Below, one piece after another: positions 49,448 through 57,074 of a stretch of DNA of 64,000 nt (position 1 is the first letter of the stretch; each line of letters starts with the position of its first letter). The notes beneath the pieces are model-generated. The model worked only from the letters and a program-made list of their open reading frames with translations, did not search any database and was not told where the DNA came from. The translations under genes were made by a program, and so were the position numbers. The stretch comes from Atopobium sp. oral taxon 199 str. F0494. Lineage in GTDB: Bacteria > Actinomycetota > Coriobacteriia > Coriobacteriales > Atopobiaceae. Location: contig NZ_KE150486.1 in NCBI RefSeq assembly GCF_000411555.1, forward strand, positions 124,001-188,000, written 5' to 3'.

Positions 49448-49487
49448 TTGCACAAGTAATTAAAAAGGGCGTATATTCATATGAATA
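49448..49487 (+). promoter_or_regulatory. Promoter of the first orphan binding protein
   Basis: TTGCAC (49448-49453), 18-base spacer, TATATT (49472-49477). A 14-bp palindrome TATTCATATGAATA (49474-49487) overlaps the -10 and the expected start point and may be an operator. TTGTTACGT occurs twice upstream (49399 and 49427). Confidence 0.62.
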
Positions 49488-49519
49488 TTTGTAGGCCAAT
49501 AAACGGAATAGGTGATTTT

Positions 49520-51289
49520 ATGGCTAACAGTCTGACCCGTCGATCTTTCTTTGAGGTTTCTGGTCTTGCTGCAGCAGGTCTTGGACTTACCGCCTGCGGT
49601 GGTGGCAACGGAACTCAGGGAGGCTCCGGCGATACGGGAGTTGAGCCACAGGACGGCTCTCCGGCAACGACCGCTCTCGACAAGCTTCCGCTTCCTGAGA
49701 AGGGTAAGACCTACAACAACCCTAAGAAGCGCGACGAAGTCAAAGACGACGGTACGGTAACGCTTGCTATCAACGAAGTCGGCCCTAACTGGAACTATTC
49801 AAGTCTTGAAGGTAATACAACCTACATGAACTGGATGTGGTCTTTGTATATGCCTATTAATCTGGTTAGTGCCGATGCGACTGGCTCTACGTACACTCCT
49901 AAAGCCGACTACATCAAATCACTTTCTTCCGATGAGTCTTCAGGTAAGCAGATTATTACCGTTGTGTATGCCGATCAGGCTAAGTTCAACGACGGCACTG
50001 ATATCGACTGGAAAGCGTTTGAGACTGTATGGAAGTGTCTCTCTGGTCAGAGTGAGGACTATCAGGTTGCCGCTACTGACGGCTGGGATAAGATTGAAAC
50101 GGTTGCTCAGGGTGATACCGCCAAGACCGCAGTCGTTACTATGAGAGAGCCGGTTTATCCGTATGAAGCTATCGTAAGCATGGTACTTCACCCGGATATC
50201 GTTGACGTTGATACGTTTAACAGCGGATTCTTGAATAATCCGCATGTTGAATATGGCGCTGGTCCTTACATCGTTGATTCGTTTGATGACACTCACGCCA
50301 CATTCAAGCCCAATCCTAAGTGGTGGGGAGATGCTCCTAAATCCACGACGGTAACATATAAGCAGATGGAAGCTCAGGCTACCTTCAATGCGTTCAAAAA
50401 CGGCGAGATTGACTCTGTTGGTACGGGCCTTTCCGGTACCGCTGAGATGCTTTCCAACTTTAACAGCATGGATGACGCTCAGATTCGCCGTGGTCTTTCT
50501 ACTTCTATTGCGGTTATTGAGATCAATTCTACGCGTGGAGCGCTTCAGGATCTTGCGGTCCGTAAGGCGTTCTGCCAGGCAGTTGACCCTGCGACTATTG
50601 TTTCTATCGTCTTCCAGGGTGTCAACTGGTCCGAGGATGCTCCGGGCTCTATGCTTATCCCTTATTGGGCAGACGGCTATGAGGACAATCGTCCCGATGA
50701 TCTGAAGAATCTTAAAGACGCTTCCGCTCGTACCGCAGCTGCAAAGAAGACGCTTGAAGATGCAGGCTATACTGCGGGCTCTGATGGTATCTATGCAAAG
50801 GGCGATACCAAGGCAAGCTTCTCCTTTACCACCTTTGGTGACTCCACAACCGTTAAGAACCGTTCCGCTGCTATTCAGAAGATGGCAAAAGACGCCGGTA
50901 TCCAGGTTGACATTGACAACCACGCCTCTTCTGAGTTCTCTAAGATTTTGAGCTCTGGCGCATGGGACACCTGTCTCTTTGGCTGGAACGGCACCACAAC
51001 CTCCATTTGGAATGGTGTCCAGCTCTATGGTTCTGAGTCCTCTTCCAACTTTGGTAAGCAGGGTACCGCTGAGACCGATGCCGAGTTTGCGAAGGTTCCT
51101 TCTATCAAAGACAAGGCCGAGCAATTCAAGCAGTGCAACGCTACCGAGAAGAAGCTGATGGAGACGTACGCCTATCTGCCTCTGTTCACCGGTCCTGACT
51201 GCTCTGTTGTCAAGAAGGGTCTGGCAAACTACGGTCCTGCGCTCTTTGAGGATCCGGCTGTTACCAACCTTGGTTGGCAAAAGGACTAA
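49520..51289 (+). CDS. Tat-type lipoprotein, oligopeptide-type ABC substrate-binding protein (orphan, copy 1)
   Basis: 589 aa. Signal region SLTRRSFFEVSGLAAAG with twin arginine and lipobox LTAC, then a Gly/Asn linker and a full SBP_bac_5 domain (AKFNDGTDIDWKAFETVWKCL, NPKWWGDAPKSTTVTYKQM, DLAVRKAFCQAVDPATIVSIVFQGV). No permease or ATPase is adjacent, so it must use a transporter elsewhere, possibly the operon at the window start. Same length as copy 2 (51747) and clearly a paralogue. ATG 49520 has ATAGGTGA upstream, mirrored in copy 2. The surrounding codons favour T-ending forms, perhaps reflecting high expression. Confidence 0.88.
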   Translation: MANSLTRRSFFEVSGLAAAGLGLTACGGGNGTQGGSGDTGVEPQDGSPATTALDKLPLPEKGKTYNNPKKRDEVKDDGTVTLAINEVGPNWNYSSLEGNTTYMNWMWSLYMPINLVSADATGSTYTPKADYIKSLSSDESSGKQIITVVYADQAKFNDGTDIDWKAFETVWKCLSGQSEDYQVAATDGWDKIETVAQGDTAKTAVVTMREPVYPYEAIVSMVLHPDIVDVDTFNSGFLNNPHVEYGAGPYIVDSFDDTHATFKPNPKWWGDAPKSTTVTYKQMEAQATFNAFKNGEIDSVGTGLSGTAEMLSNFNSMDDAQIRRGLSTSIAVIEINSTRGALQDLAVRKAFCQAVDPATIVSIVFQGVNWSEDAPGSMLIPYWADGYEDNRPDDLKNLKDASARTAAAKKTLEDAGYTAGSDGIYAKGDTKASFSFTTFGDSTTVKNRSAAIQKMAKDAGIQVDIDNHASSEFSKILSSGAWDTCLFGWNGTTTSIWNGVQLYGSESSSNFGKQGTAETDAEFAKVPSIKDKAEQFKQCNATEKKLMETYAYLPLFTGPDCSVVKKGLANYGPALFEDPAVTNLGWQKD

Positions 51290-51613: not shown

Positions 51614-51704
51614 AAACAGCTCGTTTCCAAATGTTAAACAATCTGTTTCCACATATTAAACAACATGTTTCCGGCTAAAGACCCATTTTTTGATTTGTTA
51701 CAGT
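51614..51704 (+). promoter_or_regulatory. 22-bp-periodic operator array and promoter of the second orphan binding protein
   Basis: Three 13-bp dyads AAAC-N5-GTTT begin at exactly 51614, 51636 and 51658, each followed by CC. Two have five-base half-sites (AAACA...TGTTT). The even 22-bp period puts all sites on one helix face. An extended -10 TGTTACAGT (TACAGT at 51699-51704) lies 28 bases after the last site. Strong candidate for cooperative repressor or activator binding. Confidence 0.65.
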
Positions 51705-51746
51705 GAGCAAATCAACTGTTCGTCTCGTAATGGAATGGGTGATCTT

Positions 51747-53516
51747 ATGGCTTACAGTAATCTTTCCCGCCGTTCGTTTTTGACGCTTTCCGGTGCTGCG
51801 GCTGCAGGGCTTGGCCTTGCTGGGTGCAACAACGGCGCGGCCAACGATGGCAATAAAGCGTCCGGCGATGTTGAGCCACCGGAAGGAAGTCCGGCTACCA
51901 CAGCCCTTGATAAGCTTCCTATCCCCGAGAAAGGCAAGGTCTACATCAACGCCAAGACGCGCGATGAGATTAAGGATGGCGGCACGCTCACCCTTCCCAT
52001 TATCGAGATTGGACCGGACTGGAATTACCTCAATGTAGCTGGCAATACGCTCTACATGCACGAGCTCTGGAATTACTACATGCCTGCTCTTTGCGTTTTG
52101 GGTGACGCTACGGGCTCTAAGATTGAGCCCAATCCCGACTTCATTAAGTCCATCAAGGTGGATGAGAGTAGCGGTAAACAGGTCATTACGGTTGAGTATG
52201 CCGAGAAGGCCGTCTTTAATGACGGCACTCCAATAGACTGGCAGGCGTTTAACGCCGTTTATACCGTTATGAGTGGTAAAGACGAAGCGTACACTCCCTC
52301 TGCGACCGATGGTTACGACAAGATTGAAAGCGTTGCCAAGGGCGCGACTGACAAAATCGCCGTTGTTACCATGACGGAACCGGTCTATCCCGCCGAGGCG
52401 CTTTTTGGCACTGCACTGCACCCATCGGCAGCCGATCCCGACACCTTCAATAATGGCTGGGCTAATGAGCCGCATGTGGATTGGGGTGCTGGCCCGTTTA
52501 CCATCGACTCCTTCAGCGACACTCAGGTGACCCTCAAGCCCAATCCTAACTGGTGGGGAGACGCTCCTAAGCTCGATACCATCGTCTTCAAGCAGATGGA
52601 GTCGCAGGCGCTCTTCAACGCCTTCAAGAACGGCGAGATTGATACGACCGGTGTGACTCAGTCTGGCTCTGCCGAGATGCTCTCCAACTTCAACAGCATG
52701 GAAGACGCGCAGATACGCCGTGCTTACGGCAAGTCGGTCTACAACATTGAGATTAACGCCACGCGCGGTGCCCTTACCGACATCAATGTTCGTAAGGCTT
52801 TCTGCCAGTCCATCGACCCCGCGGTCATTGTCTCCATTATCTTCCAGGGTGTTAACTGGCAAGAAGAGGCTCCGGGCTCGTTGCTCCTTCAGACGTGGTC
52901 CGATGGTTATGAAAACAACCTGCCCTCCGATGTCAAAGACCTTACTGACAGCGCCGCCCATGTCGCCGCTGCCAAGAAGACCCTTGAAGCTGCAGGCTAT
53001 GCGCTTGGCTCTGACGGCATCTATGCTAAGGACGACACCAAGGTCACCTTCGCTTTCACGACGTTCGGAGATTCGGCTACCACCAAGAACCGCGCAGCCG
53101 CAGTTCAGAAGATGGCTAAGGACGCGGGTATTGAGGTCACCATTGACAATCACCCGTCTTCCGAGTTTTCTAAAGTGTTGGTTTCCGGTGACTGGGACAC
53201 CTGCATGTTCGGGTGGAGCGGTACTGCGACTTCTATCTGGAATGGCGGACAGCTCTACGGGTCTACGTCTGAGTCCAACTTTGCCAAGTGCGGAAGCGCG
53301 GAGATTGACGCCGATTTCGCCAAGGTTCCCTCTATCGCTGACCACGCCGAGCAGGTCAAGGCGAGTAATGATGCCGAGAAGAAGAGCATGGCCTCTTACG
53401 GTTACCTACCCGTCTACTCCGGACCTGAGGTCATTGTTGTCAAGAAGGGCATTGCGAATATCGGACCTAACCTGTATCTTGACATCCGCACCGAAGATAT
53501 CGGCTGGGAGAAATAG
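51747..53516 (+). CDS. Tat-type lipoprotein, oligopeptide-type ABC substrate-binding protein (orphan, copy 2)
   Basis: 589 aa, paralogue of the gene at 49520 over its full length. Signal NLSRRSFLTLSGAAAAG with lipobox LAGC; then EGSPATTALDKLPIPEKGK and the SBP_bac_5 fold (FNDGTPIDWQAFNAVYTVM, NPNWWGDAPKLDTIVFKQM, DINVRKAFCQSIDPAVIVSIIFQGV). No transport partners are adjacent. ATG 51747 is preferred by analogy with copy 1 (both GGTGAT-N3-ATGGC). The different upstream region suggests separate regulation of the two copies. A terminator lies about 135 bases downstream. Confidence 0.88.
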   Translation: MAYSNLSRRSFLTLSGAAAAGLGLAGCNNGAANDGNKASGDVEPPEGSPATTALDKLPIPEKGKVYINAKTRDEIKDGGTLTLPIIEIGPDWNYLNVAGNTLYMHELWNYYMPALCVLGDATGSKIEPNPDFIKSIKVDESSGKQVITVEYAEKAVFNDGTPIDWQAFNAVYTVMSGKDEAYTPSATDGYDKIESVAKGATDKIAVVTMTEPVYPAEALFGTALHPSAADPDTFNNGWANEPHVDWGAGPFTIDSFSDTQVTLKPNPNWWGDAPKLDTIVFKQMESQALFNAFKNGEIDTTGVTQSGSAEMLSNFNSMEDAQIRRAYGKSVYNIEINATRGALTDINVRKAFCQSIDPAVIVSIIFQGVNWQEEAPGSLLLQTWSDGYENNLPSDVKDLTDSAAHVAAAKKTLEAAGYALGSDGIYAKDDTKVTFAFTTFGDSATTKNRAAAVQKMAKDAGIEVTIDNHPSSEFSKVLVSGDWDTCMFGWSGTATSIWNGGQLYGSTSESNFAKCGSAEIDADFAKVPSIADHAEQVKASNDAEKKSMASYGYLPVYSGPEVIVVKKGIANIGPNLYLDIRTEDIGWEK

Positions 53517-53985: not shown

Positions 53986-56202
53986 ATGGCAGAACAAGAA
54001 CTGAGCGTACGATCCATTGACGGTATCGTTGAAGGCAGTGTTACCGCGACGCTTGCGCGTATTTTGCAGCTCGTGGGAGACGCCGTTATTGTTTTTGACC
54101 AAGAGGGACGGGTACTTCTCGCCAATGACGAAGCTGTCAGACTGTTTGAATACCACGAAAGAAACCTTATAGGATCTGATATCCGCACCTTCTTTACGCC
54201 TGGCGACGCGGAAGATCGGTCGACGGCATTTGACGCGGAGGCGCTCCCATTCCCAGTTGACGGAAGCACAGCGCTTGTAACGGTCGCGGACGCCGCCGGT
54301 GAACCATTGACGCTGCGCGTGCGTTCTGAGCGGGCAGGGGCGCCCACAGAGGCTTTTGTGCTTGTTGTTGTACCGGTGAGTGACGAGGCGACGTCTGAGC
54401 GAGAAGAACAGCGCACCATAGAGGAGCTCCGCCGGGCAAACAAGCGGCTTTCCGGAGCACTTAATATCGTGTTGGATACGCTTGATTCCGAAAATATGGG
54501 GCAGTTGCTTGAGCGTGTCATCGCTGAGATTGCTGACACTATGGAGGCCGACGGTTCCCTCATCTATCTTGCGGAACATGATGGCTTTCACCTACATGGG
54601 ACAACCGAGTCTATCGCGCGCTCATCGGCGCCGCGGTTTGTGGGGTACGGGCATCTGATAGAAAATCTCTGCGCGGATACGGGCCATGCGCTCAGGCTGC
54701 GCGTGGCGCCGCCGAATCCTCAGGATTTGCGTGCCGGACGCCTGACCTCTCGTGATGTAGTCAACGACGATACGCGTGAGGTGTATGAGGTTGCGGTTCG
54801 TCATTTGCCGCCGTTCGTCAGTTTTATCGCGGTACCTGTGTGGTTTGGTGGTCAGATTATAGCGCTGATTGAAGTGGGCTGGAAAACCGTGCATCCCCTG
54901 AATTCTGACGACACGCGCCTGCTTGATTCCATCTCAAATTACCTTTCAGTGCAGTTGGTGGGTGCGCTTTCTACGATGCGGACGCAACGGCGCAATGAGT
55001 TGCGTGAGCTTGCGCTTGATGTTCGCAACCGTTTGACGGCCGCTGCCGGCGCTCAAGAGGGTGGAGCCAGCAGAGTTCTGCCCGAGGTCATGCAAGAGGT
55101 GGCAGAGGCTCTCGATGCCGTGGTATATCCTGTCGTGTGCTGCGAAGTGTCCGGCAGGCCTGTAGTTCACCCCGCGGACGCTCCGGTATTTGAGCTGCCC
55201 GCTGGTTTAGGGGAGATTTCCGAGAAGGACGAGGAAGCTCAGGTCATAGCCATTGCTCCCGACTCTGTCATAAGTGAGGAACTCCGCGCTTTGCAGCAAC
55301 CGTGCATAGGCGCGGCTCTTCTCGCTGGGAAAATAGAAGACAAGCGCCGGACCTGGCTTTTCTTGCGGCCGTATGATTCGGAGCCTATGAGCGACATCGA
55401 CCTTGAATTGCTGCAGCGCGTGGCTCTCAATGTGAGGGCTATTGTGGCGGGCGCGGAAGAAAGCAAGCAAAACAAGCGTATCTCGCAGGCGCTGATGACA
55501 GGCATGAAGAATGAACTGCAGCATATTGATGGTATCGAGGCGCAAGGAATCTATTCGTCCGCGACCGCGGCAGCCTTTGTCGGCGGCGATTTCTACAGCC
55601 TTGTGAGACTTTCGGGACGTCGAGCCTGCGTTATTATGGGCGATGTTTCCGGTAAGGGCATTGAAGCCGCCTCCGTGTCATCGGCCGTGAAGACGGCGCT
55701 TTCCGCATACGCGTGGGAGGGGATTGGTCCTGCTCGCATGGTGGCGAATCTAAACGAGTTTCTTTTGGGCTTCTCGCGCATCGAAACGTTTGCGACGTTG
55801 TTTGTCGGCGTGGTCGATTTGGCGAAGGGCGTGTTGACATACTGTTCAGCGGGACATCCACCCGCGGCGCTTGTGCGCGCCGCTACGGGCGAGGCGCAGC
55901 TTTTGGATGTGCAGTCCGGTGTCGTGGGAGCGTTTCAGGATATGACATACAAAAACGGCTACGTTGAGCTGCGTAAAGATGACGTTTTATTTCTGTACAC
56001 CGACGGTACGACTGAGGCGAGAAGCCCCGAGGGTGCATTTTTTGGCGAGACGGGCTTGCGTGACATGGTCATGAGTGAAGTTCCTCATGGCTTTGAAGGA
56101 CTGCTTGACCGCTTTTTGGCGACGCTGGATGCCTATACAGGACGCAGCCTTGAAGATGACGTTGCTATGGTCGCCTTGCGGTTTTCCGGGCTGCCGGCGT
56201 AG
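53986..56202 (+). CDS. PAS/GAF sensor with PP2C-type (RsbU/SpoIIE) serine phosphatase
   Basis: 738 aa, no membrane helices. PAS domain at about 20-130 (ILQLVGDAVIVFDQEGRVLLANDEAVRLF), a short coiled coil, a GAF domain at about 165-330 (LLERVIAEIADTMEADGSLIYL), a second GAF-like region at about 350-480, and a C-terminal PPM phosphatase at about 510-735 with GGDFYSL, MGDVSGKGIEAA, CSAGHPPA, LFLYTDGTTEA and DDVAM metal-site motifs. Such proteins dephosphorylate anti-anti-sigma factors in response to signals; the next gene encodes such a domain. ATG 53986 follows GAAAGGCGG. Confidence 0.9.
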   Translation: MAEQELSVRSIDGIVEGSVTATLARILQLVGDAVIVFDQEGRVLLANDEAVRLFEYHERNLIGSDIRTFFTPGDAEDRSTAFDAEALPFPVDGSTALVTVADAAGEPLTLRVRSERAGAPTEAFVLVVVPVSDEATSEREEQRTIEELRRANKRLSGALNIVLDTLDSENMGQLLERVIAEIADTMEADGSLIYLAEHDGFHLHGTTESIARSSAPRFVGYGHLIENLCADTGHALRLRVAPPNPQDLRAGRLTSRDVVNDDTREVYEVAVRHLPPFVSFIAVPVWFGGQIIALIEVGWKTVHPLNSDDTRLLDSISNYLSVQLVGALSTMRTQRRNELRELALDVRNRLTAAAGAQEGGASRVLPEVMQEVAEALDAVVYPVVCCEVSGRPVVHPADAPVFELPAGLGEISEKDEEAQVIAIAPDSVISEELRALQQPCIGAALLAGKIEDKRRTWLFLRPYDSEPMSDIDLELLQRVALNVRAIVAGAEESKQNKRISQALMTGMKNELQHIDGIEAQGIYSSATAAAFVGGDFYSLVRLSGRRACVIMGDVSGKGIEAASVSSAVKTALSAYAWEGIGPARMVANLNEFLLGFSRIETFATLFVGVVDLAKGVLTYCSAGHPPAALVRAATGEAQLLDVQSGVVGAFQDMTYKNGYVELRKDDVLFLYTDGTTEARSPEGAFFGETGLRDMVMSEVPHGFEGLLDRFLATLDAYTGRSLEDDVAMVALRFSGLPA

Positions 56203-56312
56203 CGCGTCGCGCGGTAGCGTAACGCTTGCGTTGGCGATGTGCCAGCGACGTGGAGCGTGGTTCCTGCATTGGTGATGCGGAGCGTGGCGCGCTGTGCTCT
56301 GCGCTGAAATAA

Positions 56313-57074
56313 ATGCACGTATGTGGGAACAAAGCCTGTATGCGCACAAAACCAAACATAGCCTTGCTTTCTGTAAACTCTGATCTTGATGTCACCGCAG
56401 TTCCTGCAGTGCGACGCGAGGTCGAAGAGCTTTTAAATCAAGGCTGTCAGCGTATCGTGTTGAACATGGCCGATGTATCCTACATTGATTCGGCCGGCAT
56501 GAGCTTTATCATGTGCGCCTTGCGCCGTGTTCGTTCAACCGGTGGACTTATGAGCCTTACCAATGTGTCGCAGCCGGTGTTTCGCTGTCTTTCGCGTATG
56601 CGTCTGGTTGATTTTATGCCAGTGACACGCGTTGGCGCGCATGCGCACGTTGCTCCTTTGGATCCTAGGGTGCGTCCGCTTTGGCAGACGACGTTTCGGG
56701 TGGACCCTTCCGCGCTGTACGCTGCCCGCGCTCGTGTGGATGAACTTCTCGCCAGCGTACCGTTTTCAAGCGACGCGATGTTTGACCTCAAGCTCGCGGT
56801 GGGCGAGGCTCTTGGCAATGCCGCGGATCATACGTGTGAGGGTGGCATCTTAACAACCGTTGCAATGTATCCCGATCGTGTAACGGTGGACGTCGCTGAT
56901 TGCGGCAGGGGATATGCGCTGGCAGACGATGAGGAACCTCCCGACGTTGATTGCTGTGCTGAGAGGGGTCGCGGTATCAAGCTGATGCGCTTGCTGACTG
57001 ATGCTGTGTCGATTTCGGTCAAGCCGTCGGGCAAGGGGACTGTGGTGCATCTTGTGAAACTGGTGCGTTCGTGA
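56313..57074 (+). CDS. Fused anti-anti-sigma (STAS) and anti-sigma kinase (RsbW-like HATPase) protein
   Basis: 253 aa. Residues ~15-110 form a STAS domain with the phosphorylatable DSAG loop (SYIDSAGMSFIMCAL). Residues ~130-250 form a GHKL kinase: N box LAVGEALGNAADHT, G1 DVADCGRGY, G2 RGRGIKLM. In partner switching these are normally separate proteins; here antagonist and kinase share a chain. The PP2C phosphatase directly upstream is the expected partner; no sigma factor gene is in the window. Start uncertain: ATG 56313 has no clear ribosome site, and ATG 56340 (nine residues shorter) is an alternative. Confidence 0.85.
   Translation: MHVCGNKACMRTKPNIALLSVNSDLDVTAVPAVRREVEELLNQGCQRIVLNMADVSYIDSAGMSFIMCALRRVRSTGGLMSLTNVSQPVFRCLSRMRLVDFMPVTRVGAHAHVAPLDPRVRPLWQTTFRVDPSALYAARARVDELLASVPFSSDAMFDLKLAVGEALGNAADHTCEGGILTTVAMYPDRVTVDVADCGRGYALADDEEPPDVDCCAERGRGIKLMRLLTDAVSISVKPSGKGTVVHLVKLVRS

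Follow-up and report, generated by a model that had tools for sequence, protein, structure and literature searches.

A STAS-kinase fusion and a neighbouring PP2C phosphatase as probable parts of a dispersed SigB/F-type partner switch in a Lancefieldella genome

In a 64-kb stretch of this Lancefieldella genome (C1:124001-188000, hereafter the window), we have identified a gene for a PAS-GAF-PP2C phosphatase followed by a gene that joins a STAS domain and an RsbW-like kinase in a single polypeptide. This locus is probably the covalent-modification half of a five-protein partner switch of the SigB/F type, the other half of which lies about 470 kb away. The five parts would be the phosphatase (P), the STAS-kinase fusion (K), which appears to be the only RsbW-like protein of the genome with an intact ATP site, a stand-alone RsbV (V), an RsbW-fold protein (W) and a sigma factor (S). 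The proposal offers a testable wiring diagram for the sole alternative sigma factor of SigB/F type found in this genome, and the wiring is probably valid for much of the Coriobacteriia, among them gut and oral bacteria. Moreover, the two tasks of RsbW, phosphorylation and the holding of sigma, are apparently divided here and the kinase is fused to its putative substrate, so that phosphorylation in cis and in trans could be tested in one small protein. In limited full-text searches of the literature, we came across no description of such a system in Coriobacteriia.

The phosphatase gene (53986-56202, plus strand, 738 aa) was recognised from its open reading frame, profile matches, motifs and nearest solved structure. 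Profile matches place, on the same strand, a PAS domain at residues 23-112 (54052-54321; E 1.4e-6), a GAF domain at residues 172-324 (54499-54957; E 2.3e-10) and a SpoIIE-type PP2C domain, as delimited by Pfam, at residues 544-733 (55615-56184; E 1.7e-45), the SpoIIE family domain scoring 155.8 bits against a cut-off of 25. The metal-binding Asp motifs of PP2C enzymes are GGDFY at 533, just N-terminal of the Pfam match, GDVSGKG at 552, TDG at 672 and EDDVA at 723, and the closest solved structure is that of Rv1364c (3ke6, E 3.5e-14). A second, weak SpoIIE match of the genome is a PP2C phosphatase with a C-terminal BofC_C-like domain, encoded beside an FHA-like protein (L047:1853-3124).

Phosphatase and fusion are two distinct open reading frames, 110 nt apart, rather than one chain of the Rv1364c type. 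The fusion frame (56313-57074, plus strand) codes for 253 aa matching STAS (E 1.6e-16) and HATPase_c_2 (E 1.2e-18), and the first-pass annotation was right to place a PAS/GAF/PP2C gene before a fusion of STAS and RsbW-like kinase. Since the position of Met10 is kept in relatives, the ATG at 56340 is probably the true start, which gives a gene at 56340-57074. The RsbV/SpoIIAA-like STAS domain (residues 10-104; 56340-56624) carries in its D-S-x-G motif Ser60 (codon 56490-56492), the equivalent of the SpoIIAA phosphoacceptor Ser58, and the fusion scores 64.8 bits with TIGR00377 (ant_ant_sig), above the cut-off of 53.45 for RsbV/SpoIIAA antagonists. It is followed by an RsbW/SpoIIAB-like GHKL kinase domain (residues 122-252; 56676-57068) with R139, E165, N169, D196-x-G-x-G and G219-R-G. 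The HATPase_c_2 score is 67.8 bits against a curated cut-off of 27.4, and the predicted kinase domain has the RsbW fold, with a VIA-align Z of about 16 to UsfX/SpoIIAB (pTM of the AlphaFold model of the fusion 0.74). Scores with the two NCBIfam RsbW/SpoIIAB equivalogs are below both cut-offs (37.0 vs 145 and 35.0 vs 135 bits); judged by sequence, the domain is a relative of RsbW/SpoIIAB and not an equivalog. No other HATPase_c_2 match of the genome has RsbW character.

A survey of STAS-HATPase fusions, which had been called for earlier, found one in 27 of the 40 relatives examined, the closest named locus being that of L. rimae (84% identical), and a PP2C gene lies within about 3 kb of the fusion in 27/27. 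In an alignment of 55 fusions, Asp59, Arg139, Glu165, Asn169, Asp196, Gly198, Gly200, Gly219 and Gly221 are identical in every member, the N, G1 and G2 ATP motifs are intact in all 55, and 54 have Ser at position 60, where the remaining one has Thr. Its recurrence, the constant proximity of a PP2C gene and the invariance of the key residues argue that the fusion is real and under selection, and no sequencing accident. The phosphatase is on the opposite strand to the fusion in some genomes, and in several relatives a cation efflux (CDF) gene, which the window does not have, lies between the two (L147:6002-6937; L148, L149, L150 and L146). At eight loci checked from other classes or families, what matches the fusion best is a pair of neighbouring genes on the same strand, STAS first and kinase second, with a stop codon between them. 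The fusion therefore seems to take the place of an operon pair. As the kinase motifs are intact and the fused STAS has a Ser that could accept phosphate, the fusion may plausibly phosphorylate this domain in cis, and the phosphatase encoded next to it could remove the phosphate again. To this extent the switch drawn in the first-pass annotation stands; its further step, sigma release within one molecule, is not favoured.

The reason lies outside the window. A Sigma70_r2 search of the genome found no sigma gene inside the window; two matches exist genome-wide, RpoD at C1:514490 and a second at C1:653789, within a SigB/F/G-family sigma factor of 276 aa (C1:653315-654145; 288.3 bits with TIGR02980, cut-off 234.35), the sole one of its kind in the genome. 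The earlier remark that no sigma gene is nearby is hence correct for the window and misses one about 470 kb off; at that distance, the adjacency of fusion and sigma genes that canonical anti-sigma placement implies is absent. Directly upstream of the sigma gene, and overlapping it by 11 nt, is the gene of W, an RsbW-fold protein of 129 aa (C1:654135-654524; L045:5136-5525). W matches RsbW models weakly (Pfam E 0.006) and is likely annotated as hypothetical. Its predicted structure (pLDDT 88) matches B. subtilis RsbW (6m36, E 2.7e-9) as well as the complexes of mycobacterial UsfX with RsfB and with SigF. In a sequence comparison of 18 relatives, the N-box Asn, the DxGxG motif and the GxG loop of W are all missing; 17 columns are invariant, and among the features kept are a Glu pair and an invariant helix of the A-R type. 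We read W as a conserved pseudo-kinase with a putative anti-sigma role. Because this conserved protein without ATP motifs overlaps the sigma gene, the last step of the switch is more probably intermolecular than contained in the fusion.

Alternatively, the fusion itself could be the anti-sigma factor, its HATPase domain binding sigma and its own dephosphorylated STAS displacing sigma in cis. R139, which is kept in 55/55 fusions, aligns with Arg20 of SpoIIAB, a residue that serves both sigma and antagonist binding. Yet W also keeps the residue aligned with Arg20, so this argument does not discriminate between the two proteins. PMC10950880 reports that Rv1364c, in which kinase and STAS are likewise fused, binds SigF in vitro. 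Against this, the canonical anti-sigma position, overlapping the sigma gene, is held by a dedicated and conserved W, and in M. smegmatis, the nearest system studied by experiment, sigma is not bound by the RsbW that acts as kinase (PMC7693655). We therefore regard an anti-sigma fusion as unlikely, and keep W as the candidate partner of sigma.

The stand-alone RsbV (C1:772741-773067) has the Ser of a DSTG motif, within an invariant YIDSTGIGVL. It accompanies the fusion in all fusion genomes of families f1 and f10, which we read as Atopobiaceae-like and Coriobacteriaceae-like, respectively, and is absent from family f2. Mean column identity is 61% for the stand-alone RsbV vs 43% for the fused STAS, so the former may be the main antagonist. 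One could go further and take the fused STAS for a docking or self-inhibiting regulatory domain of the kinase, with the stand-alone RsbV as sole substrate and antagonist. The presence and stronger conservation of RsbV in these genomes would suit that reading, and so would the linker of the fusion, where a recurring LDP...P-W stretch and P122 (54/55) suggest a fixed arrangement of the domains. Nonetheless, a phosphorylatable residue is kept in the fused STAS of 55/55 members, and the gene adjoining the kinase in other classes codes for a similar STAS protein, an arrangement also seen in the rsfB-rsbW2 operon, whose STAS protein is the antagonist. A purely regulatory STAS thus appears unlikely to us, and we retain the fused STAS as a probable substrate beside RsbV.

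The genes of the two distant halves tend to occur together. Among 196 Coriobacteriia genomes with a completeness of at least 90%, fusion, W and sigma are all present in 141 and all missing in 51, and four genomes are discordant. In G049 the kinase match reaches a contig end and in G109 there is a weak partial match only. In G144, W and sigma are missing along with the flanking rarA, for which reason an assembly gap is likely. The fourth, G088, is an exception to the co-distribution that may be real: fusion and phosphatase are kept elsewhere, and rarA, the AI-2E permease gene and alaS stand side by side on contig C25 (L144), DUF948, W and sigma being missing from the interval. The numbers of joint absences should be read on the phylogeny; a tree of RpoD from 36 genomes explains co-absence by two changes, one of them owed to a distant outgroup, and since it maps to essentially one clade it counts statistically as about one joint loss.

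A second link to the sigma factor is a promoter-like motif before the fusion gene. In the window, a -10-like element of SigB/F type, GGGAAC (56325-56330, plus strand), begins exactly 15 nt 5' of the ATG at 56340, and a weak -35-like element, GAAATA (56306-56311, plus strand), is N13 away from it. The motif, GNNT-N13-16-GGGAAY, recurs at the fixed 15 nt before the fusion ATG in the two families f1 and f10. GGG-H-A-Y was found at exactly this distance in 28 of 42 fusion loci, which are not independent of each other, vs 0.7% in mononucleotide shuffles. The -35-like block is usually A/T-rich, with versions GAATAG, GTTTAG and GATTAA at a spacing of N13-14 in f10. For comparison, PMC8346170 gives GTTTAA-N12-14-GGG(A/T)A(A/T) as the published SigB consensus; a -35 of the form GNNT is accepted, and one SigB/SigF promoter of S. 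coelicolor has GGGAAC. Where a lineage does not have the motif, a ribosome-binding site tends to stand before the fusion instead, which fits near-leaderless transcripts where the motif is present; from the spacing we infer that the fusion transcript may start almost at its ATG if this promoter is used. No SigB-type motif was found within 300 nt of the starts of the phosphatase, W or DUF948 genes in the genome, and a genome-wide search for a regulon by the leaderless-spacing motif gave 11 matches vs 8 for a reversed-pattern control, not above control. A GGGAAC 7 nt before the ATG of the stand-alone RsbV was rejected as a second promoter, relatives showing AGGAGG-type ribosome sites there.

The gene pairs of other classes and this promoter motif are two independent lines in favour of a link between the fusion and the sigma module. 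It had been suggested earlier that the output was unknown and might not be a sigma factor. After genome-wide sigma and RsbW searches we reject an unknown output, and a module that is co-distributed with one SigB/F/G sigma factor and carries a SigB-type promoter motif speaks against the suggestion. Non-sigma partner switches do exist, and a metabolic or secretion target, for example, would agree with the distance between module and sigma gene, with G088, which keeps the module without sigma at its usual place, and with the cation efflux gene next to the fusion in several relatives. Set against the joint presence and absence of fusion, W and sigma and the motif in two families, such an output is highly improbable.

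We can thus propose how a sigma-directed switch would be wired. In the unstressed cell, the kinase domain of K would phosphorylate Ser60 of its own STAS and probably V also; neither phosphorylated protein would be able to bind W, and S would stay held by W. A signal perceived via PAS/GAF would activate P, which would remove the phosphates. Free STAS of K, V or both could then bind W and release S. S would in turn transcribe the K gene from the promoter just 5' of its ATG, and active sigma would therefore raise the amount of the resetting kinase. Whether the whole class shares a switch in which the antagonist has its own kinase, a dead-kinase anti-sigma only binds, and sigma drives the fusion near-leaderlessly as a built-in shut-off loop, we put more tentatively, at slightly less than an even chance.

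The nearest experimental parallel is the SigF switch of M. smegmatis. There, the RsbW1 encoded beside sigF binds SigF and does not phosphorylate RsfB, whereas RsbW2, in which the N, G1 and G2 motifs are intact, phosphorylates RsfB at Ser63 and does not bind SigF; rsbW2 lies behind rsfB in one operon, phosphomimetic RsfB is unable to bind RsbW1, and RsfR, a PP2C encoded nearby, reverses the phosphorylation of RsfB (PMC7693655, PMC10950880). By sequence and predicted fold, our system has in common with it a kinase-competent RsbW apart from a non-kinase RsbW-fold protein beside sigma, a STAS directly before the kinase and a PP2C gene nearby. It differs in that STAS and kinase are one polypeptide, in the PAS-GAF part of a phosphatase that carries a receiver domain in the RsfR type, and in an extra phosphorylatable stand-alone RsbV. 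As every feature examined that is visible in the sequence is present, we propose the M. smegmatis layout with RsfB and RsbW2 fused.

Fusion of kinase and STAS as such is already known from Rv1364c of M. tuberculosis (PAS-PP2C-kinase-STAS; 3ke6), whose STAS is reported to be autophosphorylated at Ser600 and dephosphorylated by the protein itself, as cited in PMC10950880. Kinase and STAS in one protein and a PAS-linked PP2C are common to both; in Rv1364c all four domains form one chain with the kinase before the STAS, whereas here the phosphatase has its own gene and the STAS comes first. The predicted split from a dead-kinase anti-sigma (W) and the class-wide conservation also set the present fusion apart. 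With the RsbU-RsbV-RsbW-SigB switch of B. subtilis it shares a PP2C, a STAS antagonist, a GHKL kinase and a SigB-type sigma with its promoter consensus. Unlike here, where the roles are apparently split and the genes dispersed, the single RsbW of Bacillus is both kinase and anti-sigma and is encoded in the sigB operon.

Finally, upstream of the module the window holds two similar SBP_bac_5 solute-binding proteins in tandem (49481-51289 and 51690-53516) with a tRNA-Leu gene between them; the second protein has a weak match to a TAT signal.
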